From Pseudeuparius sepicola (lineage: Eukaryota > Arthropoda > Insecta > Coleoptera > Anthribidae), in the NCBI GenBank assembly GCA_963920635.1, contig OY987298.1, positions 122,645,735-122,709,734 of the forward strand: a DNA stretch of 64,000 bases, in the 5' to 3' direction. Each line of letters begins with the position of its first letter. The stretch's first letter is position 1. The notes beneath the pieces were generated by a model that saw only the letters and a program-made list of their open reading frames with translations, ran no database searches and was not told the origin of the DNA. This document shows positions 3,173-60,722 of the stretch, in pieces. Both the position numbers and the translations under genes were made by a program.

Positions 3173-3924
3173 GTACTGTGTGATAGACGAGGTGAGAGCC
3201 CCTATAACCTATACTCATCGACTGTGTTATTATGAGTTTGTTCTCACCGGAATAAGGAACCAGTCGTGAATATAATTGAAGGATTTTAAGTTATCTGACT
3301 GTTCTGAATATTTTGATGCCTGCTGATTAGCTCCGACTTAGTTGAGACCTGCTTGTGCTTCTGAGAACAGGCCTATCTAACTTAATCTCTGTGTCGCAAC
3401 GTTTGAAGATTCTTTTTGTCTCACTCAGACAATTCTGTAAGACGACAGTTACTTAAGTACATTGTATGAGAATTGGTACGAAATATAGTTTGTTCGCATC
3501 CTATAACATTAAAGCATTTCTTGTGTTTGTGGTTACACTTTTCTTACGAATTTGTGGATACACTTTTCTTACGAATATTATAATATATATAACTTTTTTT
3601 ATTAACCAAATATTTTTGGCTGTGAGAATGAATATTTATTTAAAGCTTTAAGAAAGAAAATGTTGATATTTTTATATACCTGGAACTGAAATAAAGTCTT
3701 TCCTTTACTTATTGCTGTTTATTATTTCCTACAAATATAATTTAAATTGAAGACCAGGCACATAGTATATCCCTGGTTCATATACAGCTTCTTTGTATTT
3801 TAGTTTTATTTTATTTTTACAAATAACACATTTCCTTAATTTGTACTTATCAATGACATTTGAAATTTCTTTAAAATAAAGTATATGTAAAATTATAAGA
3901 GAGAAAGAAGAAGAAAATGGGCAT

Positions 3925-8015: not shown

Positions 8016-10139
8016 AACACACTTCCAATCAGGGGGAATATTAGTAGGGTAGCTAACGGTATCCTATACTATTTGCTATAGCAAACAGACAAGATTAGAG
8101 GAATACATATATGAAACTAAGTTGTAGGGAATATTAACTTCTTATGACAATGCAAGAAGCAGATGAGTTAGGCGCTAATGATGAATATAGATAATTTATA
8201 AAGCTATTTATCTATAGGAAAATAATACTAAAGACGATGAACGGCAGTGACGTACCGCTAGTCCTACCGGTTTTTTAGCCTGGCCAAAGTAGCTGTTTCT
8301 ATTTGTTTCTGTAAGAATTTTATTCAAAGCGGTTTTATTATTGAGACATATTTCTATCCATTGTGGATAGACAGTAATAATTGGAAAATTAGTAATCACA
8401 CCTATGTCTTATGAATGTATATGTTCGAATCCCTGCGGTAGCGGCACCTACAAAAACACATTAATAGGTACTCCCCAAGACTAGAGTGATTTTTAAAACC
8501 CTTAGTCATCACAAAATAACCTAGTAAATCGCTGAAGTATACGGTACTCATAAATATCAATCTCTATGTTGTCGCTTAATGTCACAATAGGGTACTTGAC
8601 AATATTTTTAATTGCTCTAAAATTGTACTCTGTTTACAGTACACAACACGTAATAAATGAAACAACGGCTTTTAACCCTTATTTATTGATGATAATTAAA
8701 GATGAAGTTGCACAATTTTGTTCAGGCTGAAACCTACAGTTTCGTCGTTCTATTGTCCAGAACGCTAAAAGTGGCAACTCTGTGCCTCTCAGGAGAAACG
8801 GAACTGTAACGTTGCCGGTGCCCGTTTGCAATAAATCGTGGAACAAGGGCAAATTGCAGTGTTCTATTCAAGTATCTTCAGCTTGCCTATGAATATTTGT
8901 TACTTAATGTATTGCAACCTTTGAGCTTTAACTAACGCAATTGCACACACAAATTTTGTCACATAAAGATTTTTTTATTACGAATATGTTCCGTATATTG
9001 ACTCCTCTATAGCAAAATGGTGTCTGTTTATGCTGCACACGCTGGAAAATATATCCTTCCTCTCTGTCACTTAACACTTTAGTTAAAATATCTGTATATA
9101 CGGAACATACTATAAATATTCAGGTATCAATAATGGGGGAAATATTCGCGTATGTGGCAACGTTACCCGCCCACCTACGCATCTAACCATATTCAGATAT
9201 CCACATGTCATCTAACACGTATGGTTTTCTGATCGGCAGATGACATCCCGTGATGCCAACTGTCATTCCATATCACGCTAAATCAAAACATAAGTAGATA
9301 ATATCTGTGCGATTTATTATAGTTTGTTATTGATATTTACTATTATAATATTGTTGCGGACCTAGTTATCGTGTTGTTAAATGTGTAAGGTCCCATGGTC
9401 CCTGAAAGGACAATCCGTAATTTGCCGAAATTGGATGCTTTTTTAGTAGCACAATTTTTTCTAATAATCCGATGTTAGCGTCTGCTGAAATTCATGGGAT
9501 AAAACTGCAAGGGTTTGTACCTACGTTGTAGTAATAGTATGAGTTACTAATAAGGAGAGAACCTCGGCCTAGGGACCATCTTGAAGGCACGTTTATATAA
9601 AGGCGCCATAGTGCTTAGAAGTACTGAGCCCAAATTCCGGACTTTAGGCTCAACCTAGCCAAAAAAATTTGCGGAAAAACGATTGAATAGGTAGGTATTT
9701 ACGAAAAAAAAAACACTTCTTTACTAAATGTGCTTCACGGGGCATCATAAGTCTGGGAGTTTGAGGTTAGAATTTTGAAATTTCAACTCTCCTTGCAACT
9801 TTCACTGCCGAATAAGGTTATGTCTCAGAACACTTCAGTGGTATCGCTATGTTGCCAAATTGCCTATTTAAAACACTTGTGACGTCATAAGTGCTTTCCC
9901 GCGAAATTTCGAAGAAAGTCTATAAACTTGATAATTACGTAAATATATATATTTTAAATAATCGTAGGGTCTTAAGCAAGTATCCAGGAATTGTTTTATC
10001 AAGTTTGTATAATTTCGCCAAGTACCCTATTCTAGTAGACTTATTCGTTCAATAAAACGATTTATTTCTTGATTAATAAATGTTGCTTTCATATCTATTT
10101 AGATTTTTTTCTATGGTTCATATACTCTTGCTGCCGATC
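8016..10139. other. No gene; one short inverted repeat
   Basis: An imperfect inverted repeat (ATGTTCCGTATAT near 8985 and ATATACGGAACAT near 9095) frames about 130 bp and may be a small MITE. Otherwise I see no coding or RNA gene. Confidence 0.4.
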
Positions 10140-15886: not shown

Positions 15887-17140
15887 TCTTGAGGTTCTGG
15901 TCCCTTTAATAAGGTAATTATTTGTAATTCTTTTTGTTAGATGCCTAAACATTAAAAATTATATAAAAATATGTAAAAGCTACCTGTCTTACATGATTTT
16001 CCTATTAAATTGAATTTTAAAATTAATAAATCAGTTAAGATAAGTAATTAAAATTGAACATTTATACCTTATCCTAGATATTTTGTCGCCTTTATTTTGG
16101 AATTTGTATTTTACCTATTTGTCTCAATTTACTTCCAGGTACATACATAAAATTGCCATGTAGGTAATTTTTTTTAATCAATTCACTACTTTTTTTGTGC
16201 AATATTTACATAATTGTGATTATAGTATAGAAAAATTCTCATTCCTACAAAAAACCCGAATTTCGGAATACAGATCATACAATAAAGAGAATTACGGAAC
16301 ATGCCCATTAAATTCGCCTATTAATATGCAATATCCCTATATACCCCCTTTGCCTGAATCAGCTGACACGTTCATTAGGTGTCCTTGTCTTACTTATTGC
16401 CATTTGAAACCTCTCTAGAGTTGGCTACCCTAAACAACAATGAAAGTGGTACCTGTGCGATTTCCATTGTATTCAACGTCATGTGCGAAGATGCCACCGA
16501 AAAACATGCAAAAATCCAATATAGCGCTCACAAGAAAAAATAAAAAGAGTGTCGTTCCTTTGTTCACGTATTACTATAGGCACAACAAAAAAGACGATAG
16601 CGTTATTAAATGCCCAAAAAGTCTACTAATTATATTTGAGTTAGAAATATCAATGTCCAGCGTCCTTCGATTTTGCTTAAAAAACAAAAAAAGAGGCAAA
16701 ATGTAATAATCATACAGGGCGCCTCAGTTGTTAATGTATGAATAAAATTGATGGTAGGAAACCTAATTTTAAGCAAAAAATTCCTATGAACGCTAATTGA
16801 AAACGATAAATAATAAAAATACAGTGTGTTTCTCTTAAAAAAAACAGTTGTTTTTTTTTTCTGAATATATTGAAAACGATAAAAGGTGCTAAGCTGATAG
16901 ATTGAAAAATCTGCTGCTTGTCTAACTTTCAAGCGTTTTTCGACTCATGACTTTTTTTGCTTAAAATAAGTTTCTTCAAAGTTATGTTTAGTTAGTAACT
17001 TTAAATATTTTTCATTGTGTACTTATAGACTGTCATTTGCAACGCACTCTATCTTTCTTATGAAGCGTTTTTAAACATATTATTTTTATGTGTACTTTTT
17101 TGTTTAATATTAAATTTTCTATACCATCAGTTTAATTTAT
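15887..17140. other. No gene recognised; possible old MITE fragments
   Basis: A TA|CAGGGCGCC end at about 16714 suggests a degraded Tc1-type fragment. I found no matching far end and no coding signature. Confidence 0.35.
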
Positions 17141-17154
17141 AGAACAAAAAGAGT

Positions 17155-17222
17155 GATAGTCGACCATATACAGTACTGTTTCGGGACGGTAATCCCTCAT
17201 CAGTATGGCTCACCCGACTATC
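17155..17222 (-). ncRNA. Type I hammerhead ribozyme (minus-strand copy)
   Basis: Read on the minus strand: distal stem I GATAGTC/GACTATC, internal loop, proximal stem I CCATA/TATGG, core CTGATGA, stem II GGGA/TCCC with loop TTACCG, core GAAA, stem III ACA/TGT closed by GTAC (or ACAG/CTGT), and cleavage triplet GTA before TATGG. All invariant core bases of the hammerhead (CUGANGA, GAAA, NUH) are present. The predicted cut lies between the complements of 17169 and 17168. Confidence 0.85.
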
Positions 17223-17425
17223 AAGTGGTAGACAAACGTGCCTAGACGATGGATTTACTATATAAGGAATCAATCAATTACCGAAGCAATTAATTGATCA
17301 TGGAGTATTATAATGATAGCACACCCGAAGGTGCGGGACAAAGCCACTGGTCTTGATCGGCAAAGGCTCACGCCACAATTACCGAGACCCGCCATCTGCC
17401 GTCTAGGCACGTTTGTCTACCACTT

Positions 17426-17493
17426 GATAGTCGGGTGAGCCATACTGATGAGGGATTACCGTCCCGAAACAGTAGTGTATATGGTCGACTATC
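17426..17493 (+). ncRNA. Type I hammerhead ribozyme (plus-strand copy)
   Basis: Stem I is GATAGTC (17426-17432) with GACTATC (17487-17493) and CCATA (17440-17444) with TATGG (17480-17484), separated by a GGGTGAG/TC internal loop that could make the loop contacts seen in natural hammerheads. The core CTGATGA is at 17445-17451, stem II is GGGA-TTACCG-TCCC, GAAA is at 17466-17469, and a short stem III ACA/TGT closes on GTAG. The triplet is GTA with a predicted cut after 17479. The short stem III is typical of hammerheads in retrozymes and Penelope-like elements. Confidence 0.87.
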
Positions 17494-17612
17494 ACTCTTT
17501 TTGTTCTATCGATGTTTTCGGTTGGTTAACCGACGCCGTGGAGACGGTAGATGGCGGGTCTCGGTAATTGTGGCGTGAGCCTTTGCCGATCAAGATCAGT
17601 GGCTTTGTCCCG

Positions 17613-17947
17613 CACCTTCGGGTGTGCTATCATTATAATACTCCATGATCAATTAATTGCTTCGGTAATTGATTGATTCCTTATATAGTAAGTTTAATTT
17701 CTGACATTTATAGCCAAAAAAAAATTAAAAACTGTGTAAATACCAAATCATCACAACCAATTATTTTGTTACGGCTCCAATAATTCATTCTCTCCCACGA
17801 ATCCAGTTTCACTAACTACATTTTATACTACTTGACATAATCCGTAAAAATAGTACCTACCTACTTTTTAAAGGTATGTTGAATAGGATATTAATGAAGC
17901 CCTTCATTCTAATTTTAATTTTTCACTTGTCTAAATAATCAAATATC
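17613..17947. repeat. 335-bp tandem duplication, copy 1
   Basis: Begins inside the right-hand ribozyme unit (CACCTTCGGGTGTG), covers its last ~79 bases and 256 bases of flank. It is followed at once by copy 2 with no mismatch that I could see. Confidence 0.95.
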
Positions 17948-18282
17948 CACCTTCGGGTGTGCTATCATTATAATACTCCATGATCAATTAATTGCTTCGG
18001 TAATTGATTGATTCCTTATATAGTAAGTTTAATTTCTGACATTTATAGCCAAAAAAAAATTAAAAACTGTGTAAATACCAAATCATCACAACCAATTATT
18101 TTGTTACGGCTCCAATAATTCATTCTCTCCCACGAATCCAGTTTCACTAACTACATTTTATACTACTTGACATAATCCGTAAAAATAGTACCTACCTACT
18201 TTTTAAAGGTATGTTGAATAGGATATTAATGAAGCCCTTCATTCTAATTTTAATTTTTCACTTGTCTAAATAATCAAATATC
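17948..18282. repeat. 335-bp tandem duplication, copy 2
   Basis: Same sequence as 17613-17947 at a constant offset of 335. The identity implies a very recent duplication or an assembly artefact. Confidence 0.95.
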
Positions 18283-18791
18283 TCGGCATAAAAAGAGGCA
18301 TACCAACTCTATCCATTATTGAAAGGATACCCTGCATATTTTTATTCACCGTAAAAAGCTGCTGATGTTTACCTTTACGGCCTTTACAAGCTCCCTTCTG
18401 CATATTAAATTAACACTGAGAGCTAATATTTCTTTCAATTGTCAACGAAAGCAAAACCAAGTTGATATATTATATTATCATCTCTATGCGCATTGCTATA
18501 TTTAGAAAAATATTTTCTGGGAAGGTGCTATTATATATTTATAGAGAAAAATTTATGTCGTCCTATAGATATCCAGATAGAAAACAAATTGGGTTTGTGC
18601 TTTACTCATTAACGCGGAAAAATAAATCTTTCATGCGTCGGCGTCGAATGAAAGCAGGCGTTTATTTCCAAGCTTTTTATGGGATTTGGGATTTAGCCGT
18701 CCCGCGTATATACAGCTGTGGAAATTTTCCGTCAAACACGCAAATTAATTAATCCAAAACGTTCGCTACATCGATATATACATACAGCATA
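18283..18791. other. No gene recognised
   Basis: A 96-codon open frame (18462-18752) shows no known motif and lacks support as a gene. Confidence 0.35.
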
Positions 18792-22093: not shown

Positions 22094-22109
22094 AAATATT
22101 ATGTTTCAA
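22094..22109. repeat. Target-site duplication of Penelope-like element (left)
   Basis: AAATATTATGTTTCAA, 16 bp, repeated exactly at 23710-23725 on the other side of the element. Confidence 0.75.
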
Positions 22110-22112
22110 TTT

Positions 22113-22529
22113 CATTTAATTTTTAATTGGGTTTTTCGCCACCAAACTGATTGAAAGACAACTTTTTCAAGTTGCCTTGAAAATTCATAAATTCTAAACA
22201 CTGAATGAACGAAACTTTAAACGTGTAACTCAAAAAATAACTTCAACAAATTTGTTTTCTGAGCTTTCGGAGGATAAATCTTCCTCCTTTCTCAAAGATT
22301 ATGTCACGTCAAAGTGAAGTGACAGATTAATAAATTTCAGGTTAAAATGTCACGACAACAGAAACAATAGCCTAGCCACCTGCCTGATATTGTACCCTGT
22401 GTTTTATCTAATTATCTATACTAACTTCTCTTTGAATAAGTGGCAATAATATTTTACTGAATTCCACTGAACATTCAGCAACACAGTTGCCCGTATTTCC
22501 TAGAATAAATGCAGATTCTTTAATTTTTC
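22113..22529. repeat. Penelope terminal repeat, left arm
   Basis: Runs from CATTTAATTTTTAATTGGG to GCAGATTCTTTAATTTTTC and is the inverse of 23262-23679. A shorter piece (TTGGGTTTTTCGCCACCAAA to GAATGAACGAAACTTT) also occurs inside the 1.04-kb units near 29520 and 35180. Confidence 0.85.
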
Positions 22530-22606
22530 GTCTATTTCCTACTTCTTCTTTTAGAATTGGTTTGGAACTATCCCACAAAATCCTATGATTGTTATTAAAG
22601 GAATGT

Positions 22607-23254
22607 TCACATATTTTTGACTTGCCTGATATAATTTTTATGTTCTTTTAAACGAACGTTAAATGGCCTACAAGTCTCCCCAACATAGAACTTTCCACAT
22701 TCACAAGGAATTTTATAAATGCAATTTTTTGAACTTTGTAACTCATTAAATGGTTTTGTTTTAACTAGCATCGATCTTAATGTATTTTTGGTTTTAAATA
22801 CTGTTCTCACATTAAAACCATTGCCTATGCGTTTTAGCTTATCTGACAGTCCAGGAATATAAGGAATTATTAAATTTACTGGTCGGTCCACCAGATTTAT
22901 TTCTCTAATTCTATTAGCATTGTTATTTTGTTGGCAATCCTGAAAAACTTGCTCAACAAATTCAATAGGATAACTATTCTTCTCAAGAACATGTTTTATA
23001 TGTTTAATTTCCTCCTCAAATTTTGTGTTATTAGAACAAATGGTTCTAGCCCTGTCATACAAACTTTTAATTACTCCTTTTTTAACACTAATATGATGAT
23101 TGGAGTTGAAATGGAGATATCTATTAGTATGTGTTGGTTTTATATAGACACTAGTTTCTATATTATTTGATTTCAGTATAGAAACATCTAAGAAAGGTAA
23201 TTCATTATTATTTTCAATTTCTAAAGTAAACTTAATAGAAGGTTCTTGAGAAAT
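22607..23254 (-). CDS. Penelope-like RT C-terminus with GIY-YIG endonuclease domain (partial)
   Basis: An open frame of 215 codons from 23254 to the stop at 22607; the first in-frame Met is at 23062, but homologous-looking sequence begins upstream of it. The N-terminal part reads LPFLDVSILKSN and KPTHTNRYLHFNSNHH, a conserved stretch just after the RT palm and thumb in Penelope elements. It continues through a linker with RARTIC, and ends in CIYKIPCECGKFYVGET followed by CRPFNVRLKEHK. That is the GIY-YIG nuclease core: the IY...YVG pair, the catalytic-type R in FNVRL, and the E of KEHK. Full-length proteins carry the RT fingers and palm upstream; those are missing, cut off at a stop next to the inverted terminal repeat. 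The fragment therefore cannot make a working RT. Assignment to the class is firm; the lineage is not determined. Confidence 0.88.
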   Translation of the reverse strand: MSQEPSIKFTLEIENNNELPFLDVSILKSNNIETSVYIKPTHTNRYLHFNSNHHISVKKGVIKSLYDRARTICSNNTKFEEEIKHIKHVLEKNSYPIEFVEQVFQDCQQNNNANRIREINLVDRPVNLIIPYIPGLSDKLKRIGNGFNVRTVFKTKNTLRSMLVKTKPFNELQSSKNCIYKIPCECGKFYVGETCRPFNVRLKEHKNYIRQVKNM

Positions 23255-23261
23255 TTAATAA

Positions 23262-23679
23262 TGAAAAATTAAAGTATCTGCATTTATTCTAGGAAATACG
23301 GGCAACTGTGTTGCTGAATGTTCAGTGGAATTCAGTAAAATATTATTGCCACTTATTCAAAGAGAAGTTAGTATAGATAATTAGATAAAACACAGGGTAC
23401 AATATCAGGCAGGTGGCTAGGCTATTGTTTCTGTTGTCATGACATTTTAACCTGAAATTTATTAATCTGTCACTTCACTTTGACGTGACATGATCCTTGA
23501 GAAAGGAGGAAGATTTATCCTCCGAAAGCTCAGAAAACAAATTTGTTGAAGTTATTTTTTGAGTTACACGTTTAAAGTTTCGTTCATTCAGTGTTAAGAA
23601 TTTATGAATTTTCAAGGCAACTTGAAAAAGTTGTCTTTCAATCAGTTTGGTGGCGAAAAACCCAATTAAAAATTAAATG
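23262..23679. repeat. Penelope terminal repeat, right arm (inverted)
   Basis: Inverse of the left arm. On the plus strand here it contains CTTGAGAAAGGAGGAAG...CCTCCGAAAGCTCAG, a hammerhead-like motif also present inverted at 22261-22296. Confidence 0.85.
23492..23533 (+). ncRNA. Degenerate hammerhead-like motif in Penelope terminal repeat
   Basis: GGAGG...CCTCC forms a stem II-like helix followed by GAAAGCTC. Upstream is CTTGAGAAA where a hammerhead would have CUGANGA. Penelope-like elements are known to carry hammerheads in this position. The core is altered the same way in both arms, so activity is doubtful. Confidence 0.4.
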
Positions 23680-23709
23680 GATCTGTTTGCGCCACAAATA
23701 AATTTTAGA

Positions 23710-23725
23710 AAATATTATGTTTCAA
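23710..23725. repeat. Target-site duplication of Penelope-like element (right)
   Basis: Exact copy of the 16 bases at 22094-22109. Confidence 0.75.
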
Positions 23726-26294: not shown

Positions 26295-26979
26295 AGCCTC
26301 TGACTCAAAGAACACTCTTCTGCAACCACATACATATATTTGCGCAGGGCATTCAGTTTCCTACTATTATTTCGACTGCACTGCACTAATTTTTACGTAT
26401 AAACTAATAGGATGTCATCAGTTGCTCAAGTACCAATACGGAAGGAATCGGTAATTTTTAGTGATGACCTTTTATTGAAGCATTTTCAAAATAAACGTAT
26501 AGTCCGCGAGTGTCGTCGGTTAGCCACCAGACGTGACTGGCATGAGAGAACATGATTCTGGATCCGAGGACGATTGGACGGTCGCCTATATTTTTATTGG
26601 GATAGGATAGGAAGGAATTTATTAACCTTTGGATATAGGGTAAAATTATTTGTCACGGCCGGATGGGTCTCGTTGCTGAAACGACCCACTTCTTGATATG
26701 TTATTGGTTGGTAAAGATCTGAGCTATTTTCTGAACTTCAGAGTTGGTTTGTTTCGTCGCTTCATGAACACATTATGTTCTCGACATGTTTATCTTAGAT
26801 TGATGAGGTGAGGCCTTGTGACAGAAAAAACACTATTTACCTACTACTGACGAATTTTTCTCATTTCAAGTCAGCGTTGAGGACATACCATCGATCTATT
26901 CAAATTTATTTTATACACATTTAATTTGAAGAACTATTGCCGGTGCCGGTCACATTTCTATGCGGATGATACACAAATG
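26295..26979. other. No gene recognised
   Basis: Unique-looking sequence with no supportable feature. Confidence 0.4.
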
Positions 26980-26981
26980 TA

Positions 26982-28128
26982 CAGGGTGAGTCAGAATGTA
27001 TAGTAAATACTTTAAATGGGTGTTCGGCAGGTGGTTTTAAGGGGGGTCTTTCATACAAAATTTTTCGATTTGGGCTTTCCTTGTCAAGTTATTCGGGTCT
27101 ACAGGGTGCCCAAAAGTATTTTTTTTATTTATATCTCGATAACGGTGCTACTTAAAAATTTGAAATTTGGTACCTATGTGTTATCTACTTACTGGAAGAC
27201 GCCTTAGGGTAGTTTATTCATTTACACAGTGCATTAAAGAAGGGTAAAAACTAACAACCCCTATTATTTTTTTCCTCAAACTTTTTTGAGGTTATCTTTT
27301 TGGTCCTCATTTCAGTGTATCTTTTCATTTTGCAGCAAAAGTGTACTCTTGTTTCATAACAATAAAATCAACCGTTTGCGATGAAATTGGCAAAACGTGC
27401 CCCAAAACACCTGTTAACTTCAACATTCGAAACATAAAATTTTTACCTACCGCTTTCAAACGTTGCACATCGACTGTACCATTTAAACGGAGAAAACAAT
27501 TCCTATGAACAATGTAGGTACCAAAACTTATTAGTTTTCAAAATGGAGAGGATTGAATTTAACAAAATTTTTAACACCCTATTTCAAGAAAACCAATGTC
27601 CAATTGGTATTTTTTTCCTTATTTTGAATGTACAGTCGATCTGTAACATTTGAAAGCGGTAGGTTAAATTTTATGTTTCGAATGTTGAAGTTAACAGGTG
27701 TTTTGGGGCACGTTTTGTCAATTTCAACGCAAACTTTTGATTTTATCGTAAGAGTGCATTTTTGTTGCAAAATGAAAAGATACACTGAAATGATGGACCT
27801 GCAAGACCAGAAAGATAACCTCAAAAAAGTTTGAGCAAAAAAATTAATAGGGGTTGTTAGTTTTTACCCTTCTTTAGGGCACTATGTAAATGAATAAACT
27901 ACCCTAAGGCGTCTTCCAGTAAGTAGATAATACATACCAAATTTCAAATTTTTAAGTAGCGCCGTTATTGAGAAATAAATAAATATAACATATTCTTGGG
28001 TCACCCTATAGACCAGAATAACTTGGCAAGGATAGCCCAAATCAAAAAATTCTATATGAAAGACCCCCCTTAAAACCACCTTCCGAACACCCCTTTAAAG
28101 TATTTTCTGTACATTCTGACTCACCCTG
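26982..28128. mobile_element. Fold-back element, TA|CAGGGTGAGTCAGAATGTA ends
   Basis: The two ends CAGGGTGAGTCAGAATGTA and TACATTCTGACTCACCCTG are exact inverses and are flanked by TA (26980-26981 and 28129-28130). The whole 1147 bp folds on itself: arms of about 500 bp, for example GGGTAGTTTATTCATTTACA versus TGTAAATGAATAAACTACCC and AACACCTGTTAACTTCAACA versus its inverse. Divergence between arms is moderate. The short frames inside come from the arms and are not genes. Tc1/mariner-type non-autonomous element. Confidence 0.88.
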
Positions 28129-28130
28129 TA

Positions 28131-29174
28131 TAAGTATTTATTTTTCATTAGAAGTAAAAACTCTTCTGTCTGCCATTTGAACATTTACCTTGGAAATATG
28201 TCTGAAGCCCCTCGTATTGTGGATATTTTTTATGCGCGATATGGAAGCCGCTTCTAAAAACCATTGTTAAAATTTGCGACGCACCATTCCTGGTTCCAAT
28301 CAAAATCTCCTTATGGATAAAATGTGCACGAGAATCAAATTCCAGCTAAAATGTCAATTTAAGTTAAAACCGCCGATTTCAATTCAGTCTGGCATCAGCT
28401 AATCAACAGTTTGACTTTTGTTAGCCTCCCGCTATCGTGCGTGCGTTAAACGATTTGCTAAATTAACTGTAGGGCTCACTCAACAAAACTGTGTAGAATG
28501 AGATGTGTCATGAATAAAACCAAGGTTCATGTGTTGAAACATTTCTACAATAACGGGTAGTGAATTTTTAAAATAACATAGGTAACTAAAAAGCGATCTG
28601 GAAATAGATATTCCGGTTTCCCTTCAGTTCATGGGATATACAAAATATAGGCATTATCTACTGTATGTTGTGGTGTAGGTATACCTATATAATGACTTGT
28701 AAAAGCTGTAATACCTCTTAAATTCTAAATTGAACCCATTGTGTCTAACTTTGTTACGTTACTTGCTTCATATTGTATTTATCTCTTTTATTTCACACCT
28801 TCCAATTTTCTGAAGAATATGTCATTACAGGCCAAGCTGGATCGCTACACTTAATAACAAAGAATTCTTTTTGTAGTGCCTTCTACATTCACAAAATATT
28901 ACTATAAATAATTACTCATAACTATGGGAAATAAAAATAAAAATATGCCTAAATAGGAACAGTTATACAATAACAGAAAAAGTTTTTAAAGGCATTTGCC
29001 ATCAACCATCAACCATTAGCGAATATAAAAAATTTACTTGCATAATTTAAAAGACCAGTACAGTCTTTGAATCCCATTAATCTAACAATGCTAAAATTCT
29101 AGAAATTAAATTCGTTTTTCTATAATATGACGCCAAAATATGTCAAGGTCGAAAAGATTAAAATTAGCACGATC
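28131..29174. other. No gene recognised
   Basis: AT-rich sequence without supportable features. Confidence 0.4.
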
Positions 29175-29342: not shown

Positions 29343-30381
29343 TATTTACCAAAAATGCGAAGAAACTGTTACCTCCATACTGTGAGACCATACCTACATT
29401 ATATGGGTTAGTAAAAATATGATTTTTTTATCAAATGAACCATATTATTTTTCAGAAATTGATAAAGTGAACAATCAGAACCAATTAGTTGGCTTATCCA
29501 CAACATCCATTTAATTTTTGATTGGGTTTTTCGCCACCAAACTGATCGAAAGACAACTTTTTCAAGTTGCCTGGAAAATTCATAAATTCTTAACAGTGAA
29601 TGAACGAAACTTTCGTTGTTTTTTTTTGCAGGGCGCAAAATAAGCGAGAAAATTGCGGTGGCAGTCCTACGAAAATCATCCTGTAGGTATATAATACTAT
29701 TTTAAAATATCTACTCCATTTTTGCTTTTTATTACATTCTGGTCACTCAACCAAACGAATCAACAACAAAGTCTGATATAACTGATAGACCATTAGGATG
29801 ATCATCAAATATCTCCGTATAACTATCCGAACATGAAGCAATCCGCCTGTGTGCAAAGACTAATGAACGTAGTAAAAATGGCGAAATTAACTGCCGTGAA
29901 ACGATTTTAATGCAAAGTAATACGACGTACACCTCACTGTTTACCTTCACAATTCTATTAATCATCTCCTTTGCAATCTGCATCCTTGCGGCTGCGATGC
30001 TATCTGAACACAAACTCGCAATTCATTTCCATAGCACGGTGAGCAGTATGGTGGGCGCCCGCCGCCCGTCTTTCAAGAAACCCGAGAAGCCACAAAGAAA
30101 ACGTCATCGCACACGCGACTGAGCACCGACACGGTTATCTCTGCCGGCCAATCGATTTGTGCCAGAAAGCCATCAATTTTAGACGAGAAGTTTTTCGCTG
30201 CGACTGGAAGCGCGATCCGATAGTCATTGTTTCAGAATCAACGCCAAGTTGTGAAGCCCTAGCAAGGAAGAAGCGATATACTTGTAGTGTTTTATTTTGT
30301 GTCAGAAGAAAAAAATATTAAACTTTAGTTAAAATTATATATAAGTAAATGCATTTCAGCAGTCTAGTGATGCCAGCTAAA
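29343..30381. mobile_element. 1.04-kb duplicated unit, copy 1 (inserted copy)
   Basis: Nearly identical to 35004-36044 (start TA[T/C]TTACCAAAAATGCG, end GATGCCAGCTAAA). It is a mosaic. About 29515-29613 is a piece of the Penelope terminal repeat. About 29626-29697 (GGGCGCAAAATAAGCGAG...) recurs near 58790. The rest, GC-richer toward the right, is unknown. Only this copy has 168-bp flanking repeats, so it is the probable derived insertion. Mechanism unknown; a retroposition-type event with an unusually long target duplication is one reading. Confidence 0.85.
29910..30122 (+). CDS. Unknown small ORF kept open in both copies of the unit
   Basis: 70 codons from the ATG at 29910; the frame is open for about 30 codons further upstream. 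The product would have a hydrophobic segment (residues about 11-30, FTFTILLIISFAICILAAAM) followed by a basic tail rich in K and R. The copy at 35573-35785 differs by one amino acid (S versus R) and one synonymous change. A donor-like CACG|GTGAGC lies inside, so it could instead be an exon. No known family was recognised, and two recent copies staying open is weak evidence for coding. Confidence 0.2.
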   Translation: MQSNTTYTSLFTFTILLIISFAICILAAAMLSEHKLAIHFHSTVSSMVGARRPSFKKPEKPQRKRHRTRD

Positions 30382-35003: not shown

Positions 35004-36044
35004 TACTTACCAAAAATGCGAAGAAACTGTTACCTCCATACTGTGAGACCATACCTACATTATATGGGTTAGTAAAAATATGATTTTTTTTTATCAAATG
35101 AACCATATTATTTTTCAGAAATTGATAAAGTGAACAATCAGAACCAATCAGTTGGCTTATCCACAACATCTATTTAATTTTTGATTGGGTTTTTCGCCAC
35201 CAAACTGATCGAAAGACAACTTTTTCAAGTTGCCTGGAAAATTCATAAATTCTTAACAGTGAATGAACGAAACTTTCGTTGTTTTTTTTTGTACGGCGCA
35301 AAATAAGCGAGAAAATTGCGGTGGCAGTCCTACGAAAATCATCCTGTAGGTATATAATACTATTTTAAAATATCTACTCCATTTTTGCTTTTTATTACAT
35401 TCTGGTCACTCAACCAAACGAATCAACAACAAAGTCTGATATAACTGATAGACCATTAGGATGATCATCAAATATCTCCGTATAACTATCCGAACATGAA
35501 GCAATCCGCCTGTGTGCAAAGACTAATGAACGTAGTAAAAATGGCGAAATTAACTGCCGTGAAACGATTTTAATGCAAAGTAATACGACGTACACCTCAC
35601 TGTTTACCTTCACAATTCTATTAATCATCTCCTTTGCAATCTGCATCCTTGCGGCTGCGATGCTATCTGAACACAAACTCGCAATTCATTTCCATAGAAC
35701 GGTGAGCAGTATGGTGGGCGCCCGCCGCCCCTCTTTCAAGAAACCCGAGAAGCCACAAAGAAAACGTCATCGCACACGCGACTGAGCACCGACACGGTTA
35801 TCTCTGCCGGCCAATCGATTTGTGCCAGAAAGCCATCAATTTTAGACGAGAAGTTTTTCGCTGCGACTGGAAGCGCGATCCGATAGTCATTGTTTCAGAA
35901 TCAACGCCAAGTTGTGAAGCCCTAGCAAGGAAGAAGCGATATACTTGTAGTGTTTTATTTTGTGACAGAAGAAAAAAATATTAAACTTTAGTTAAAATTA
36001 TATATAAGTAAATGCATTTCAGCAGTCTAGTGATGCCAGCTAAA
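35004..36044. mobile_element. 1.04-kb duplicated unit, copy 2
   Basis: Nearly identical to 29343-30381, in the same orientation about 5.66 kb downstream, with a handful of substitutions and single-base indels. It lacks the 168-bp flanking repeats, so it may be the source locus or an independent insertion. Its left edge on the minus strand reads TTTTTGGTAAGT, a donor-like site absent from copy 1 (GGTAAAT). Confidence 0.85.
35573..35785 (+). CDS. Unknown small ORF, copy 2
   Basis: Same 70-codon frame as at 29910 with one substitution, placing an arginine just after the hydrophobic segment and its HFH motif. Function unknown. Confidence 0.2.
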   Translation: MQSNTTYTSLFTFTILLIISFAICILAAAMLSEHKLAIHFHRTVSSMVGARRPSFKKPEKPQRKRHRTRD

Positions 36045-44914: not shown

Positions 44915-46222
44915 ATGTCTAATATGGAGCCAAAACATTTAAAAGATGGCGAGCTAACTTACGAACTACGAATTAGGGGAGTAGACTTTTCAGGTACTGT
45001 TGAGGTTAGACGTACACGATTAAGAGGAATCCTTCAGCAGGAGCGATCAAATCGCAGTTTTTTGACTATTGCTAATCCTTTGAAATTTTCTGATGATCTT
45101 AAGCACTATTTAGATTCTTTTAATGATATTTCGAGTAAAATTAAAGCTTTTTCTGGAATCAAGGGCGACTATGAATGCCGCAGATTGGAGACTAGGTTAC
45201 AACATCTGTCACACAGAGTTTCTCGTATGCATCCAGAAGATGAGGTTGAATAACAACAACTGAAAGATGCTCAAACTAAGTTATTAGACCTTGAGGGGGA
45301 ATTTGCATTAAAATTTTTAGACTTTGAACCTCCCGCTGATAGAGCCTCCACTCCTGTGAGAGAACAATGGGGTGCAAGTTTGTCAAAACCTCTTGTTAAT
45401 GTTTGTAAATGGAATGTACACTACTCTGGTACCGAAAGGGAATCTCTTATCGCATTTTTAGAGAGAGTAGAACTTTTACGCCAAGCTAGGGGTGCGTCAG
45501 AGGCTGATTTGTTCTCTGCCGCTTGTGATCTTTTCCAAGGGCATGCGTGGACATGGTATGTAAATAATAAAGACCGAGTTCGTGATTGGCGTGATTTATG
45601 TCAGAAATTAAAGGAAAACTTCTTACCTTACCATTACGATCAAGACTTGCTTAATGAAATAAAGAATCGCACACAAGGCGCTCGGGAACGAGTAACAATT
45701 TTTATTTCTTCAGTCGAAGCTCTTTTTAAACGATTAAGTAGTCCCCCTGATGAAGTTACTATTGTGAATCAGATCAGGCGTAACTTATTACCGCAATATC
45801 ATGCTCATCTCGCTTTATTGGACGTAATGACAATTTCTGAGCTTACCACTCAATGCAAGCGCTTGGAGGAATCATATTCGTGGTCGGAACGTTATAAGGC
45901 CCCACCTACTCGCAATACTGGATTGTTGGAACCTGATTTGAGTTGTGTAGCTATTCACGATTCGCCCAGACGGGTTCATGTAAATGCTGTGTCGCTTGTT
46001 TGCTGGAATTGTAACAAGGCGGGTCACACTTATCCACAATGTAATGCTCCAAGGACGAGATTTTGTTATGGTTGTGGAAAAAAAGATGTTACTAGACCGA
46101 CTTGTTTCAATTGCCGTTCAAAAAACGTGCAGGGCACCAGTGGCCGTCAAATGACTGTCACTGGAGGAACACCAACCACCAGAACAACAACTCCAAACAG
46201 GGAACGCCAACCAAGAAACTAA
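44915..46222 (+). CDS. gag: gag polyprotein (one internal stop)
   Basis: Structural polyprotein of the virus-like particle. The ATG at 44915 opens a frame that meets TAA at 45251-45253 (codon 113) and then stays open in the same frame to 46222. The middle (about 45400-45900) has the capsid-like region with WTWYVNNKDRVRDW and EIKNRTQGARE, as in insect gypsy-type gags. The nucleocapsid has a perfect CCHC knuckle, CWNCNKAGHTYPQC, and a second, CYGCGKKDVTRPTC, where the His position is Val. The 3' end overlaps pol by about 100 bases in the -1 phase with a slippery heptamer. The stop would limit Gag to 112 residues unless read through, or unless translation restarts downstream. It could be a recent mutation, since the LTRs are almost identical. 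Confidence 0.9.
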
Positions 46223-49200
46223 TCTCTCCCAACTCCTCCCTAAACTCCTCTACTTCTGTCCGCTTTTCTCGTACTGAATGGAATGAATGGCTTGATGTAG
46301 TGGCTAAGTTTGTTGGTCAAAGATTTGTTTTCGTAAGTCCTATTTTTGTTAAGAGACCTGATGACAATAGATGTTACCTACCTGTGTCCATTTTTCATGA
46401 GACAATTTTAGCACTCGTAGACGGAGGCTCAAATTCTACAATTCTTGGTCCATCCGCGTTACCTTTATTAGAAAAATATAAAATTAAAATTTATCCGGAT
46501 CCGTCAATCATTGTTTTATATCCAGATGGAACCTCTTCAAAAATTTATGGTTATTGTTATCTTCCTTTAACGTTGAGAAATCACACTAAGACAATGAAAG
46601 TGTTAATTATACCACAGATACAACACGATTTTATTTTAGGGATGGATTTTTTAAAATTATTTAGATTATATGTTGATTATGGAAACTTTTCATATACCAT
46701 TCCTTCTCAAACTTCGTCACATGTAGCTTTTATTGAGTCTACGAACGTTTCATGTAAAATACACTCGGTGCACGATCTGTCACAGACACAACAAACTGTT
46801 CTTGACCATGTAGTCGACTTGTTTAAATCAATTTCCACTAAAGATACCTTGGGCTTAACGTCATTAATATCCCACAATATAGACACTGGAAATGCTAAAC
46901 CGTTTAAAGTTCGTCAGTATCCTCTATCACCCGCTATGCAGACCCACCTTAATAAGGAAATCGATGAGATGCTTAAATTTAAAATTATTGAGTCCTCACA
47001 ATCGCCCTGGTCCAGTCCTCTGTGGCTGGTCACAAAAAAATCAGGAGAATATAGAGTGTGTTTCGATGGTCGCAGATTAAATCAAGTAACAGTTAAAGAT
47101 ACTTATCTACTTCCTCTGATAGATAACATTCTAAATAAACTCCGCGATGCTAGATTTATTACGTCCATTGACTTAAGAAAGGCTTTTTATCAGATTCCAT
47201 TAGACCACGAATCAAGAATTAAAACTGCTTTTGCTGTACAGGGTCGAGGAAGCTTTCAATTCAGGGTTATGCCATTTGGACTTTCTAATTCACCACAGAC
47301 TATGCAGAGATTAATGGATAGAGTCATTGACCCTAGTTTGGAACCTTTTGCATTTGTTTATCTCGACGATATCATTGTAGCAACACCGACTTTTGAAAAA
47401 CACATTGAGATTTTGCATAAAATATATAATAGACTAAAACAAGCTAATTTAACTATCAATTTAGACAAATGTGAATTTTGTCGGTCTTCACTAAAATATT
47501 TAGGGTTTATTGTTGATAAGGAAGGTCTAAGAACTAGTCCAGAAAAGGTAGAGGCAATTGTCAACTATCCAGCTCCGAAGACCACTACTGAAATAAAATG
47601 TTTAATTGGTCTCATTAGTTACTATCGTCGTTTTATTAAAAATTTTAGTAGTCTAGCTTCTCCAATCACTGATTTATTGCACGGTCGTAAAAAAGGACAA
47701 ACTATTAAGTGGACTTCTGAGGCTGAAGAAGCTTTTAATAAAATTAAATACTCTTTGACTAATAGTCCAGTTTTGGCAACACCATGTTTTGAGAAACAAT
47801 TCATAATCCAGACAGATGCAAGTGATACTGGACTGGGTGCCGTTCTTTATCAAAAAATCGACGGAGCTGAACATCCCATTGCTTTTGCGAGTAAAACTCT
47901 TAATAAATGTCAACGTAAATATTCAGTTACCGAGAGGGAATGTTTGGGTGTTTTATTCGGGATTGAGAAATTTAGAGGTTATGTAGAAGGTACTCATTTT
48001 GTAGTTGAGACAGACCACGCTTCTCTGGTCTGGTTCATGAATTTATCTAATCCAGCCGGTAGATTAGCTCGGTGGGCACTCAAACTATCTCAATTTGACT
48101 TTGAAATACAACATCGGAAGGGTTCTACAATGGTAGTTGCGGATGCTCTTTCCAGAACAACACCTCTTTTAACAGAATTATCAGTCCTGGATGTTGCAGA
48201 ATTCAAGCCATGTAAATGGTATTCTTCTCTTTATCAAAAAGTTCTGACAAGTCCAGATGACTATCCTACGCTCATGGTAAAGAATAATTTGTTGTATAAA
48301 CATGTTTTTGATAGAATACCATCCATTACTAATATTTCAGAATGGAAAATGGTAGTACCAACTTCAAATAGAAAACAAATTTTTTCAATATATCATGACA
48401 GTACTACTGCCGGACATTTTGGAGTGTCAAAAACTTTAGCACGAATTAGGGAACTTTACTATTGGCCTAACATGCGTAGAGATGTTGTTAGATATGTCAA
48501 GAGGTGTCCGATTTGTGGAGCCAATAAGAGCCCAAATGTTTCGCAACCAGGTCTTATGGGATTCTATCGAAATATAAACTTCCCTTTTCAAATGATATCA
48601 GCCGATTTATTGGGTCCCTACCCACGATCTAAAAATGGTAATCAATATTTACTGGTAATAGTCGATTGGTTTTCTAAATTTGTTCTTATACAACCTTTAT
48701 TTAAAGCCACGTGTAGTTCAATTATAAAATTTATAGAGAATCAAGTTTTTTTACTGTATGGAGTTCCCCAGATATTTTGTTGTGACAATGGAAGCCAATT
48801 TATTAGCAGAGCGTTCAAGACTCTCATGGAGAAATATAGGGTGCAAAAAATATTTTATAATGCTCGTTATCATCCGCAAATAAATCATACTGAAAGGGTA
48901 AATCGTGTCATAGTGACAGCTTTAAAATCTTACATTCATGAGAATCATAAAACCTGGGATACAAATATACATCAGATTGCACAAGCTATCCGCTTAGCTA
49001 AACACGAAATAACTGACTACTCACCAGCATTTTTAGTTTTCGGTAGAAATATCCCACTTTCAGGTGACTATTATGGTAAAATCGCAGAAAATGCCAATAA
49101 CATTCCTGTAATAGAAGCAAAAAACCAACTGGTAGATGACTTGCAAGAGTTACCTAAGGTATTTTCTGATGTCAGGTTTAAGCTCAGACGTGCTCACGAG

Positions 49201-49488
49201 AAAAACTCTAGACATTACAATTTAAGGAAGCGCCCTATGTCTTTTCATGTAGGAGATTATGTTTGGAAAAAGAATTTCACTTTATCTAATGCTGCTAATG
49301 CATATTCGGCAAAATTGGCTCCCAAATACATTCCATGCATTGTGCACAAAGTTATTTCACCTTTAGTATATAATTTAAAAGATAAAGCCGGAAATAATCT
49401 GGGTAACTTTCATATAAAGGATCTCAAACCAAATTACTCTGACGATCGAGAGACCGATGACGATCTTGACCAGTCAGGTGATGAGTAG
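46102..49488 (+). CDS. pol: pol polyprotein (protease, RT, RNase H, integrase)
   Basis: An open frame of 1128 codons in the -1 phase to gag, with no ATG needed if entered by frameshifting at 46126. Residue positions are counted from 46102. Aspartic protease: LVDGGSNSTIL around 107, an unusual DGG where D-S/T-G is normal, with later IILGMD-like FILGMDFL. RT: conserved SPWSSPLWLVTKKSG, FDGRRLN, SIDLRKAFYQIP, MPFGLSNSPQTMQ and the catalytic YLDD near 420. RNase H: TDAS near 572, with TERECLGVLF and ETDHASL. Integrase: HHCC zinc finger ending CPIC near 805, core D in ISADLLGPY near 834, CDNGSQF near 895, and E in TERVNR near 931, giving DD35E. A GPY-like tail, LAPKYIPCIVHKV, precedes an acidic C-terminus. 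The frame is intact, so replication functions may persist apart from the gag stop. Confidence 0.95.
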   Translation: MFQLPFKKRAGHQWPSNDCHWRNTNHQNNNSKQGTPTKKLISPNSSLNSSTSVRFSRTEWNEWLDVVAKFVGQRFVFVSPIFVKRPDDNRCYLPVSIFHETILALVDGGSNSTILGPSALPLLEKYKIKIYPDPSIIVLYPDGTSSKIYGYCYLPLTLRNHTKTMKVLIIPQIQHDFILGMDFLKLFRLYVDYGNFSYTIPSQTSSHVAFIESTNVSCKIHSVHDLSQTQQTVLDHVVDLFKSISTKDTLGLTSLISHNIDTGNAKPFKVRQYPLSPAMQTHLNKEIDEMLKFKIIESSQSPWSSPLWLVTKKSGEYRVCFDGRRLNQVTVKDTYLLPLIDNILNKLRDARFITSIDLRKAFYQIPLDHESRIKTAFAVQGRGSFQFRVMPFGLSNSPQTMQRLMDRVIDPSLEPFAFVYLDDIIVATPTFEKHIEILHKIYNRLKQANLTINLDKCEFCRSSLKYLGFIVDKEGLRTSPEKVEAIVNYPAPKTTTEIKCLIGLISYYRRFIKNFSSLASPITDLLHGRKKGQTIKWTSEAEEAFNKIKYSLTNSPVLATPCFEKQFIIQTDASDTGLGAVLYQKIDGAEHPIAFASKTLNKCQRKYSVTERECLGVLFGIEKFRGYVEGTHFVVETDHASLVWFMNLSNPAGRLARWALKLSQFDFEIQHRKGSTMVVADALSRTTPLLTELSVLDVAEFKPCKWYSSLYQKVLTSPDDYPTLMVKNNLLYKHVFDRIPSITNISEWKMVVPTSNRKQIFSIYHDSTTAGHFGVSKTLARIRELYYWPNMRRDVVRYVKRCPICGANKSPNVSQPGLMGFYRNINFPFQMISADLLGPYPRSKNGNQYLLVIVDWFSKFVLIQPLFKATCSSIIKFIENQVFLLYGVPQIFCCDNGSQFISRAFKTLMEKYRVQKIFYNARYHPQINHTERVNRVIVTALKSYIHENHKTWDTNIHQIAQAIRLAKHEITDYSPAFLVFGRNIPLSGDYYGKIAENANNIPVIEAKNQLVDDLQELPKVFSDVRFKLRRAHEKNSRHYNLRKRPMSFHVGDYVWKKNFTLSNAANAYSAKLAPKYIPCIVHKVISPLVYNLKDKAGNNLGNFHIKDLKPNYSDDRETDDDLDQSGDE
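46120..46164 (+). promoter_or_regulatory. -1 ribosomal frameshift signal, gag to pol
   Basis: A heptamer A AAA AAC (46120-46126) sits in gag phase (TCA AAA AAC). After a 10-base spacer there is a hairpin CCAGTG (46137-46142) / CACTGG (46159-46164) with an inner GTCA/TGAC pair. Slipping back one base enters the pol frame, which is open from just upstream. Confidence 0.75.
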
Positions 49489-54116: not shown

Positions 54117-54912
54117 CAGGGTGTCTACTTTTAAACATATGCAAATTAATAAAATCTTTATTTTTGGAGATAATCCCTGAACATTCTTTGTGTGAAAGGC
54201 CTTCAAAAATCGCTTCTTTTAGCCTTCCTATCATTTTCAAAAGGCAAATCCAGGTCCGGCTACGATTTTTGAGTGTTTTTTTATTTAAAATCTACCAATA
54301 CAGCGTTAATCAGGATCCCCCTAAAACCCCTTTATATACCAAATTTGAACAAAGAATTTAGAGAGAGATCTATTCTACAGGATGTCAAGGTTCAGCAAAA
54401 TAGGAAATTTACAGGCATTTGGCGAGTCAAGTGTGCCATGGAATCCCGTCAAAATAGTTTAATTGTCAACAGAACCACTCAAAGTGTTGGTGTGCAAAGA
54501 TTCAATACAGGGTATTTTTCTCTGCCCCATCTGAAAATGCTGAATTTTTATGACTTGACTCGCCAGAGATGCCTGAAGAGGTTTCTTTAAATTTCCTATT
54601 TTGCTCAATTTTGACATCCTGTAGAATAGAACTCTCTCTATATTTTTTGTTCAAATTTGGTATATAAAGGGTTTTCGACTGTCCTGATTGACGCTGTGGT
54701 GTCAGATTTTAAATAAAAAAATGGCTAAATGGTTTTTGTGAAAATCGGGGGAATAAAAAAATCGTAGCCGGCCCTGGATTTGCAATTTGAAAATGGCAGG
54801 ATTGCTAAAATAAGCGGCTTTTGAAGTCCTTTCGGACAAAAAACAGATCAAGCGATTATCTCAAAAATTAAAGATTTCAAGGATTTGTATAATATGTTTA
54901 AAAGTAGATATG
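54117..54912. mobile_element. Fold-back MITE, TA|CAGGGTGTCTAC end
   Basis: The left end CAGGGTGTCTACTTTTAAACAT pairs with ATGTTTAAAAGTAGATATGGGG at the right. Arms of about 350 bp include CAAATCCAGGTCCGGCTACG / CGTAGCCGGCCCTGGATTTG and GACATCCTGTAGAATAGA with its inverse. Related to the fragment at 33020-33425. The short frames inside are arm sequence. Confidence 0.8.
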
Positions 54913-55182: not shown

Positions 55183-55217
55183 ATCCTAATTCGAGAGAGT
55201 AACTAACAGTGTTCGTT

Positions 55218-56222
55218 ATGCCTCGTTTGAGTGAATCCGTCAAGCACCGTATCATCGCCAAACTAGAAAATGGTTGGGCTATTTCCCGACTGGCCGAAGA
55301 ATTTGGTGTATCTAAAAGCACCATTTTCAATATAAAGAAGAAATATGACGAAACCGGAAGCGTGGAAAACATACATAGAGGAGGAAATGTGAAAATTACG
55401 TCTGACCAACAAGATGAGCAACTAGCTAATTTTTGCCTTGCAAATCCGTTTAAATCCGCCGTTGAAGCAGTATCTGCAACACAATTTCCAGCAAGTGTTA
55501 GAACTGCCCGAAGGAGATTAGATGCAGCCAATCTGAAATCTCGCACGGCCAGCAACAAAATTCAGCTGACCGAGGCTAATAAGGAAGTCAGGTTGCAGAT
55601 ATGCCGAGAGTTTCAGCGTTTACCGCCACATTATTGGGAGAAGGTAATATTTAGCGACGAAAAGATCTTTCAAAGCCATTACAATGGCAAAGTGCGAGTA
55701 TATAGACCTTTGGTGAGTTCAAGATATGACGAAAGATTTGTGTCACCCAGGAAAAGGAGTGGGCATTTTTCCGTCAACATATGGGCCTGGATAAGCTACC
55801 GTGGACCTGGCATTTGTTGGAGAATCGACGACCGCTTCACAGCAGCTCGCTATTGCGAGATACTCGAAGGCGGATTGTTACCAACTGCAACGGAAATGTA
55901 TCCCGATGGCTTCGTTTTCCAGCATGATAACGCTCCTGTGCATACAGCAAGAATAGTTCGCGAATGGTTCACCGAAAACAACGTAGAAAAGTTGCAATGG
56001 CCGGCGAAGAGTCCTGACTTGAATCCCATTGAGAATGTGTGGGGCAGAATGGCGCGGACAATGGAGAACTTCGTACCCGAAAATAGGGAGGCACTTTGGC
56101 AGAAGATTCAACAAACGTGGGATGAAGTCGTAACCCATGATCTCTGCTGCCAACTCATAGATTCGATGAGCAGGAGAGTTCAGAAAGTCATCCTATCTCA
56201 AGGTGGGTATACTAAATATTAA
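55218..56222 (+). CDS. Tc1-like transposase, intact
   Basis: 334 codons from the ATG at 55218 (MPRLSESVKH), a normal length for the Tc1 family; nothing upstream supports a longer N-terminus. It cuts and joins element ends at TA sites. The N-terminal paired-type helix-turn-helix domain covers about residues 1-110 (AISRLAEEFGVSKSTIFNIK; second HTH with ASVRTARRRL). The catalytic DDE triad is complete: first D in VIFSDEKIF, second D in FQHDNAPVHTA, and E in SPDLNPIENVWG, 34 residues after the second D, giving DD34E. No stop or frameshift interrupts it, so this copy may be active or recently so. I could not find Tc1-size terminal repeats close by. The 81-bp inverted repeats at 53643 and 58985 surround it, but with several nested insertions between. 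Confidence 0.93.
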   Translation: MPRLSESVKHRIIAKLENGWAISRLAEEFGVSKSTIFNIKKKYDETGSVENIHRGGNVKITSDQQDEQLANFCLANPFKSAVEAVSATQFPASVRTARRRLDAANLKSRTASNKIQLTEANKEVRLQICREFQRLPPHYWEKVIFSDEKIFQSHYNGKVRVYRPLVSSRYDERFVSPRKRSGHFSVNIWAWISYRGPGICWRIDDRFTAARYCEILEGGLLPTATEMYPDGFVFQHDNAPVHTARIVREWFTENNVEKLQWPAKSPDLNPIENVWGRMARTMENFVPENREALWQKIQQTWDEVVTHDLCCQLIDSMSRRVQKVILSQGGYTKY

Positions 56223-59065: not shown

Positions 59066-59392
59066 CATCCATGAAATTGTATTTATAATATTTAGTTATG
59101 TTCTTGCAATGTACAGTATCGGCAAATAATAATATTACAATACACTGTTAACTGGGAATATATATATCTGTTGTCTATAATTTCTATAAGTTTAATCTCC
59201 TCCTACTCCCACCCAACCGGTACTCCTTCCAGGGAATGGCCTACAGACTACCTGGGTTGCCATCTACACTGACTTTTGTGATAACGAAACCTCATGATTT
59301 AGAAGTGTCAGCAAGGATATAGGAAATTTTTATTAATTTAGTTTTCCTCTACATGGCACGATAGAACACAATCTGTTGATACCCGGGATGTA

Positions 59393-60720: not shown

Positions 60721-60722
60721 TA

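Follow-up and report, generated by a model that had tools for sequence, protein, structure and literature searches.

How do two hammerhead ribozyme motifs come to lie on opposite strands of a single locus, and what kind of element carries them there? In the window, by which we mean the whole 64,000-nucleotide stretch of DNA analysed here, both type I motifs (n = 2, 68 nt each, with core and helices intact) lie in one insertion of 552 bp at 17139-17690, which has a 10-bp duplication at each flank. The initial annotation had recognised the locus correctly and had placed the element at 17141-17691; its exact ends are revised here to 17139-17690, with a one-base ambiguity on the right, where the A at 17691 could be assigned to the element or to the duplication alike. 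The unit, which had been estimated at ~300 nt, measures 298 nt, and its positions are counted from the base after the cleavage site (position 1). The insertion is composed of the following parts.

17129-17138, no strand assigned: left target-site duplication AGTTTAATTT, an exact 10-nt match that directly adjoins the element
17139-17404, minus strand: segment A, 266 nt, unit positions 63-298 and then 1-30, with its 3' end abutting the left duplication
17155-17222, minus strand: hammerhead ribozyme A, type I, predicted to cleave between 17169 and 17168 (descriptor and pair check)
17249-17255, minus strand: 7-nt arc AATCCAT, unit positions 212-218, in segment A only
17400-17404, no strand assigned: head-to-head junction, a 5-nt overlap CGTCT that fits both A and B, within a weak palindrome at 17397-17409
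17400-17690, plus strand: segment B, 291 nt, unit positions 219-298 and then 1-211, with its 3' end abutting the right duplication
17426-17493, plus strand: hammerhead ribozyme B, type I, predicted to cleave after 17479 (descriptor and pair check)
17510-17541, plus strand: 32-nt arc, unit positions 31-62, in segment B only
17691-17700, no strand assigned: right target-site duplication AGTTTAATTT, an exact 10-nt match

The two segments are circularly permuted, near-complete turns of the unit, which meet at their 5' ends and direct their 3' ends outward (head to head). Aligning A with a doubled B gives an 8-nt gap and, over 258 aligned positions, 3 mismatches; one base of the junction overlap is included in the gap because B was taken to begin at 17401. 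Every connection of the 298-nt circle is supplied by A and B jointly, with the continuity from body to ribozyme found in A alone and that from ribozyme to body found in B alone. Both segments also run without a break across the GTA cleavage site, and the template was therefore, at that point, a circular or multimeric RNA. On the circle, the two start sites are 117-181 nt apart.

A direct repeat of at least 10 nt was found at only 25 of 20,000 random site pairs drawn from the same window with the same slack, and as a single flush 10-bp duplication surrounds the whole composite, one insertion event is the most likely explanation. What the initial annotation had missed is that copies A and B are a single insertion, in the inverted layout that is typical of Penelope insertions. 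The inverted-repeat pairs of this layout (17255-17404 with 17542-17691, and 17139-17248 with 17400-17509) have centres about 149 nt apart, and the outer ends (ATAGAAC... against the inverse of ...TATAGTA) show no match in inverted orientation. Where they reach the duplications, the 3' ends read GTTCTAT and TATAGTA, neither with a poly(A) or simple-repeat tail. The GC fractions of the segments are 0.449 and 0.459, and no open reading frame of at least 120 aa, counted from stop to stop, lies over the element. Within the 64-kb window there is no other copy of the retrozyme beyond its duplicated last 78 bases. These 78 bp, the right duplication and flanking DNA are spanned by a perfect 335-bp tandem duplication at 17613-18282 (2 copies, 100% identical), which is very young unless it stems from misassembly.

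At the level of sequence and pairing the two hammerheads are complete. Both contain CTGATGA, GAAA and, as cleavage triplet, GTA, and all drawn pairs of stems I, II and III are canonical. Stem I comprises 5 bp, an asymmetric internal loop and then 8 bp; stem II has 4-5 bp, and stem III, if the core A-U pair is included, consists of 3 bp and a 4-nt loop, which in hammerhead A is a GUAC lying inside a fully palindromic stem III segment, CAGUACUG. The descriptor used to define these motifs, in a search of the RNAmotif kind used in PMC7229834, demands the core, a stem II of at least 3 bp, a paired stem III and a stem I of at least 4 bp; it was composed after the locus had been inspected and so was not blind. 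Scanned over both strands of the 64-kb window it returned hammerheads A and B and no others, whereas 60 random windows generated by an order-1 Markov model and scanned on both strands gave a single match altogether. The description first given of the locus, as two inverted hammerheads with these core elements, pairable stems and an internal loop in stem I, is thus confirmed by the descriptor and the pair check.

The window itself offers a comparison, as a second insertion of matching layout is found 4.4 kb away.

22113-23709, minus strand: 5'-truncated Penelope-like copy, head to head, with inverted arms at 22113-22536 and 23257-23679 and a tail at 23680-23709
22094-22109, minus strand: 16-nt duplication of the Penelope-like copy, TTGAAACATAATATTT, with its second copy at 23710-23725

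The arms of this copy are 424 and 423 nt long, a 30-nt extension is present on one side only, and three bases separate the duplication at 22094-22109 from the element on that side. A 215-aa ORF fragment at 22607-23254 has 25 protein relatives at E<=0.001, of which the three that carry organism names belong to the beetles Exocentrus adspersus (two) and Diabrotica balteata (one), so that the host may be guessed to be an insect, perhaps a beetle. Pfam assigned this fragment to no family, and judging by its motifs its end is GIY-YIG-like. The descriptor found no hammerhead in the Penelope-like insertion (22094-23725). Both insertions have ATTT at the edge of the duplication beside one inverted segment. 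No sequence common to the two was found, the best match being 20 nt at E 0.04-0.07, which agrees with the earlier statement that the unit is unrelated to the Penelope repeat. Elsewhere, a 109-nt piece from the 3' region of Penelope occurs twice, at 29505-29613 and 35168-35276, within copies of another repeat (>300 bp, with near-identical flanks); it seems that a different repeat took up the Penelope end. As they lie inside another repeat, these pieces were dropped as candidate insertion footprints.

Both the structure of Penelope insertions and the activity of the purified protein have been described. According to the account in PMC3846280, the usual insert carries an inverted pLTR, head to head being the commonest inverted arrangement observed, and some copies have direct pLTRs only; duplications of 8, 9 and 10 bp are exemplified there alongside copies without any, and a 31-bp tail on one side is optional. 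As reported in PMC11167929, both DNA strands are cut and extended by a purified Penelope protein, which favours AT-rich sites with ATT and begins copying within an RNA that has no homology to the target.

We propose the following mechanism of how the insertion might have arisen. In our judgement, 17139-17690 probably arose by a single retrotransposition of an animal retrozyme, 298 nt long and non-coding, that was inserted by a Penelope-type reverse transcriptase/endonuclease from both strands of the target. Tandem copies elsewhere in the genome would be transcribed, cut by their ribozymes into 298-nt units and circularised, as may be inferred from the retrozyme cycle given in PMC7229834. A Penelope-type reverse transcriptase/endonuclease would make a cut staggered by 10 nt in AT-rich DNA, and both target strands would be extended, each from an internal start on the retrozyme RNA. 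Each cDNA would fall slightly short of a full circuit (266 and 291 of the 298 nt) and would read past the cleavage site, either never cut or ligated again, before both were joined at the 5-nt microhomology, which would leave permuted units head to head with their 3' ends at the duplications. The permutation, the orientation, the duplication and the junction are all directly visible in the DNA, and the Penelope-like copy nearby has the matching layout. From these we infer the ribozyme activity, the involvement of a Penelope enzyme and a template that was circular rather than multimeric.

The last of these points would follow from the turn lengths of 0.89 and 0.98, which at this one locus suggest that a reverse transcriptase on a circle could stop at its own start; a linear multimer is also possible as the template, but would give no evident reason for a stop near one turn. 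A more specific version may be put forward tentatively, and it is possible rather than probable: a Penelope enzyme, which might act as a dimer, would have copied circular RNA from two sides, with both nicked target strands as primers and one circle to each, and each copy would have ended slightly before a full turn on reaching its own start. Against the favoured explanation as a whole are the single locus, the lack of shared sequence, the distance of 117-181 nt between the starts, and the Rfam and folding results presented below. If two-sided one-turn copying were true, it would provide direct genomic evidence both for circles as the template and for Penelope as the carrier of retrozymes. The account in PMC7229834 leaves open the carrier enzyme and the question of a circular template; Penelope elements are named there as a strong candidate carrier of animal retrozymes, and LINEs are also left open. 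A copy of this kind, permuted, head to head and flanked by a duplication, leaves a footprint of insertion whose frequency can be scored across retrozyme-rich genomes, which makes the question testable.

The same retrozyme might instead have been inserted by a LINE, through target-primed reverse transcription with twin priming on a multimeric or circular RNA, and we consider this rather unlikely. Twin priming is the mechanism behind the 5' inversions of LINE-1, and it would give an equal topology, that is, head to head with the 3' ends outward, a duplication and microhomology at the junction. However, a product of LINE twin priming bears poly(A) or a simple repeat where its 3' end adjoins the duplication, whereas here a tail of this kind is present at neither 3' end. 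Furthermore, both ends start internally at unrelated positions of the unit, and the same window contains the Penelope-like copy of matching layout. These observations weigh against LINEs, although they are among the carriers left open in PMC7229834, and we retain the Penelope-type enzyme as the preferred reading.

A different kind of objection concerns the ribozyme itself, as an ordinary repeat could contain a motif that resembles a hammerhead by chance or through decay, without working as one, a situation that would be compatible with several insertion mechanisms. Rfam gave 0 matches for the whole window at the gathering threshold and 0 for the 1601 bases at 16800-18400 at E<=1. At E<=10, RF00008 was returned for hammerhead B on the plus strand (13.6 bits, E 2.2) and for hammerhead A on the minus strand (12.1 bits, E 5.5), both far under the cut-off of 48.5, and the plus copy is aligned there to a model of type III, in which helix III is the open helix, unlike the type I reading given here. 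Three viral contigs that match the hammerhead-core pattern likewise had no Rfam hammerhead match, although as unproven hammerheads they are no real positive control. Hammerhead-core-like stretches are found at 3451-3477 of viral contig L001 and at 10111-10137 of L003, the latter about 1 kb downstream of a Hatchet ribozyme (8979-9180, Rfam 70.3 bits). As isolated RNAs, and calculated with no tertiary terms, the plus copy has a minimum-energy fold at -24.6 kcal/mol against -16.7 kcal/mol for its hammerhead fold, and the minus copy one at -24.2 against -16.1 kcal/mol. The hammerhead fold thus lies ~8 kcal/mol above the predicted minimum, which is a different structure. Of the checks suggested in the initial annotation, the covariance search came out against the motif, a score below threshold having been named there as refuting it, and the fold of the 17426-17493 RNA gave a minimum-energy structure other than the hammerhead; cleavage is accordingly putative.

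Nevertheless, the core is full, every stem is paired and copies A and B are both intact, while the unit size and the permutation are what would be expected of a ribozyme-processed circle. There is also a possible tertiary contact, formed by two segments of hammerhead B.

17434-17438, plus strand: stem I internal-loop segment GGUGA, which can pair with the loop II segment UUACC (proposed loop-loop pseudoknot)
17456-17460, plus strand: loop II segment UUACC, the partner of 17434-17438

This complementarity of 5 bp, between loop II and the stem I loop on its 6-nt side, was reached by 5882 of 200,000 random loop pairs of like size and composition, and the predicted contact is suggestive only. It is of the loop I-loop II kind that PMC3088659 describes as predicted in about 40% of hammerheads, and it may speak against a non-working motif. 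On balance we regard a look-alike as unlikely and continue with a retrozyme carrying a putative functional hammerhead.

The inverted structures of Penelope have been explained in PMC3846280 by self-priming, inferred from palindromes at the junctions, or by a switch of template on an antisense transcript; in the present case one cDNA would snap back and be recopied. Palindromes are indeed present at both junctions in this window, with 4 bp at 17397-17409 in the retrozyme and 6 bp in the Penelope-like copy. However, the former is equalled in 4684 of 20,000 random 9-nt spans (retrozyme criterion) and is not significant, and the latter is equalled in 1339 of 20,000 random spans (Penelope criterion). 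A snap-back moreover predicts arms mirrored about one centre, and here there are two centres and unlike ends, which makes this route quite unlikely.

It is very unlikely that the locus is a DNA transposon of the foldback or MITE-like kind, or that the retrozyme inserted twice independently: several concentric inverted repeats in the window look foldback-like (among the 25 of 36 pairs listed), but such transposons have terminal inverted repeats at both duplications, while here the outer ends are not inverted copies and the two centres lie apart where the hairpins (again among those 25 of 36) are concentric, and a single flush duplication brackets both segments.

The window contains a number of other elements. 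Long concentric inverted repeats of MITE- or foldback-like appearance lie at 26969-28141, 54184-54843 and 59389-60724 (among the 25 of 36 pairs listed). Open frames that are gag- and pol-like occupy 45254-49488, with Pfam Retrotrans_gag in the first; the second, of 1130 aa, resembles a Ty3/gypsy pol in its motifs. At 55203-56222 there is a 339-aa Tc1-like transposase frame with Pfam DDE_3 and HTH domains.

Returning to the single Penelope-type insertion that we favour, it is of interest what such a copy could itself produce. The release of unit-length circles needs two hammerheads on the same strand, and as there is one per strand here, a lone copy should not make them. Circular RNA from the locus, which the initial annotation had raised, is thus not supported, the descriptor having found one sense hammerhead on each strand. 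The locus would appear to be a product of transposition that is itself unlikely to release circles. In the predicted fold of the whole plus strand, the bodies of the two segments pair in a duplex of ~150 bp, and the ribozyme stretch lies in the apical loop in an alternative, non-hammerhead fold. That a read-through transcript would hide the ribozyme by pairing it with its antisense copy was considered and dropped, since the predicted fold pairs the 150-nt bodies instead. It may be speculated that a read-through duplex of this kind could feed small-RNA silencing. When modelled as closed circles, 63% and 59% of the bases are paired, with z values of -1.97 and -2.33 against 100 mononucleotide shuffles each, indicating modest compactness.

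The assignment to the retrozymes made at the outset is upheld by the type I hammerhead, the 298-nt unit, a GC content of about 45%, the absence of a long frame over the element and the 10-bp duplication. We conclude that this is likely a new family of animal non-LTR retrozymes. The exact ribozyme pattern had 0 matches in viral_contigs and 0 in genome_contigs, the exact body pattern had 0 in viral_contigs, a distant DNA search with the element gave no match to phage records, and a tRNA scan of the window found none. In the literature listings searched, no head-to-head retrozyme turned up, and an earlier printed report is possible.

Among the closest known elements are the metazoan non-LTR retrozymes, which PMC7229834 describes as units of ~170-400 nt with type I hammerheads, low GC and no LTR, with duplications of >4 bp when present, tandem copies and circular RNA. 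Shared with these are the type I hammerhead with a short stem III, a unit within 170-400 nt, a GC content of <50%, a duplication of >4 bp, the lack of a long frame and a Penelope-like copy in the same genome. At 45-46%, the GC content is borderline by the legend to Figure 1 of PMC7229834 (under 45%) and lies below the 50% of its text. The published copies are direct tandems, from dimers to multimers, whereas this locus holds two permuted units head to head and no direct tandem.

The hammerheads of amphibian satellites, compared here by description only, share the short stem III and a palindromic loop (GUAC in copy A); this locus differs in its stem III of 3 bp, with the core A-U pair counted, and in a host that is perhaps an insect. 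As set out in PMC7229834, they are weak singly and cleave efficiently as dimers, and the stem III loop is palindromic in one axolotl family. The plant LTR retrozymes, as characterised in PMC7761336 and PMC7229834, have in common with this element a non-coding hammerhead unit and a circular RNA model, but they differ in their type III hammerheads, LTRs, tRNA-Met primer site and 4-bp duplications.

A further likeness is to the endonuclease-containing Penelope-like elements. The retrozyme differs from these in having no long ORF with reverse transcriptase and GIY-YIG domains and no pseudo-LTR homology that could be found, and its hammerhead is fuller than the minimal kind of Penelope. Its starts are 117-181 nt apart, whereas the start pair of Penelope is adjacent (30-40 nt), and it is without the 30-40-nt one-sided tail, a feature that is optional in Penelope as described in PMC3846280. 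The head-to-head layout, the short AT-rich duplication and the internal 3' starts are alike when set against the descriptions in PMC3846280 and PMC11167929. The composite thus has the layout, the AT-rich target and the internal starts in common with Penelope, while the tail is absent and no common sequence was found.
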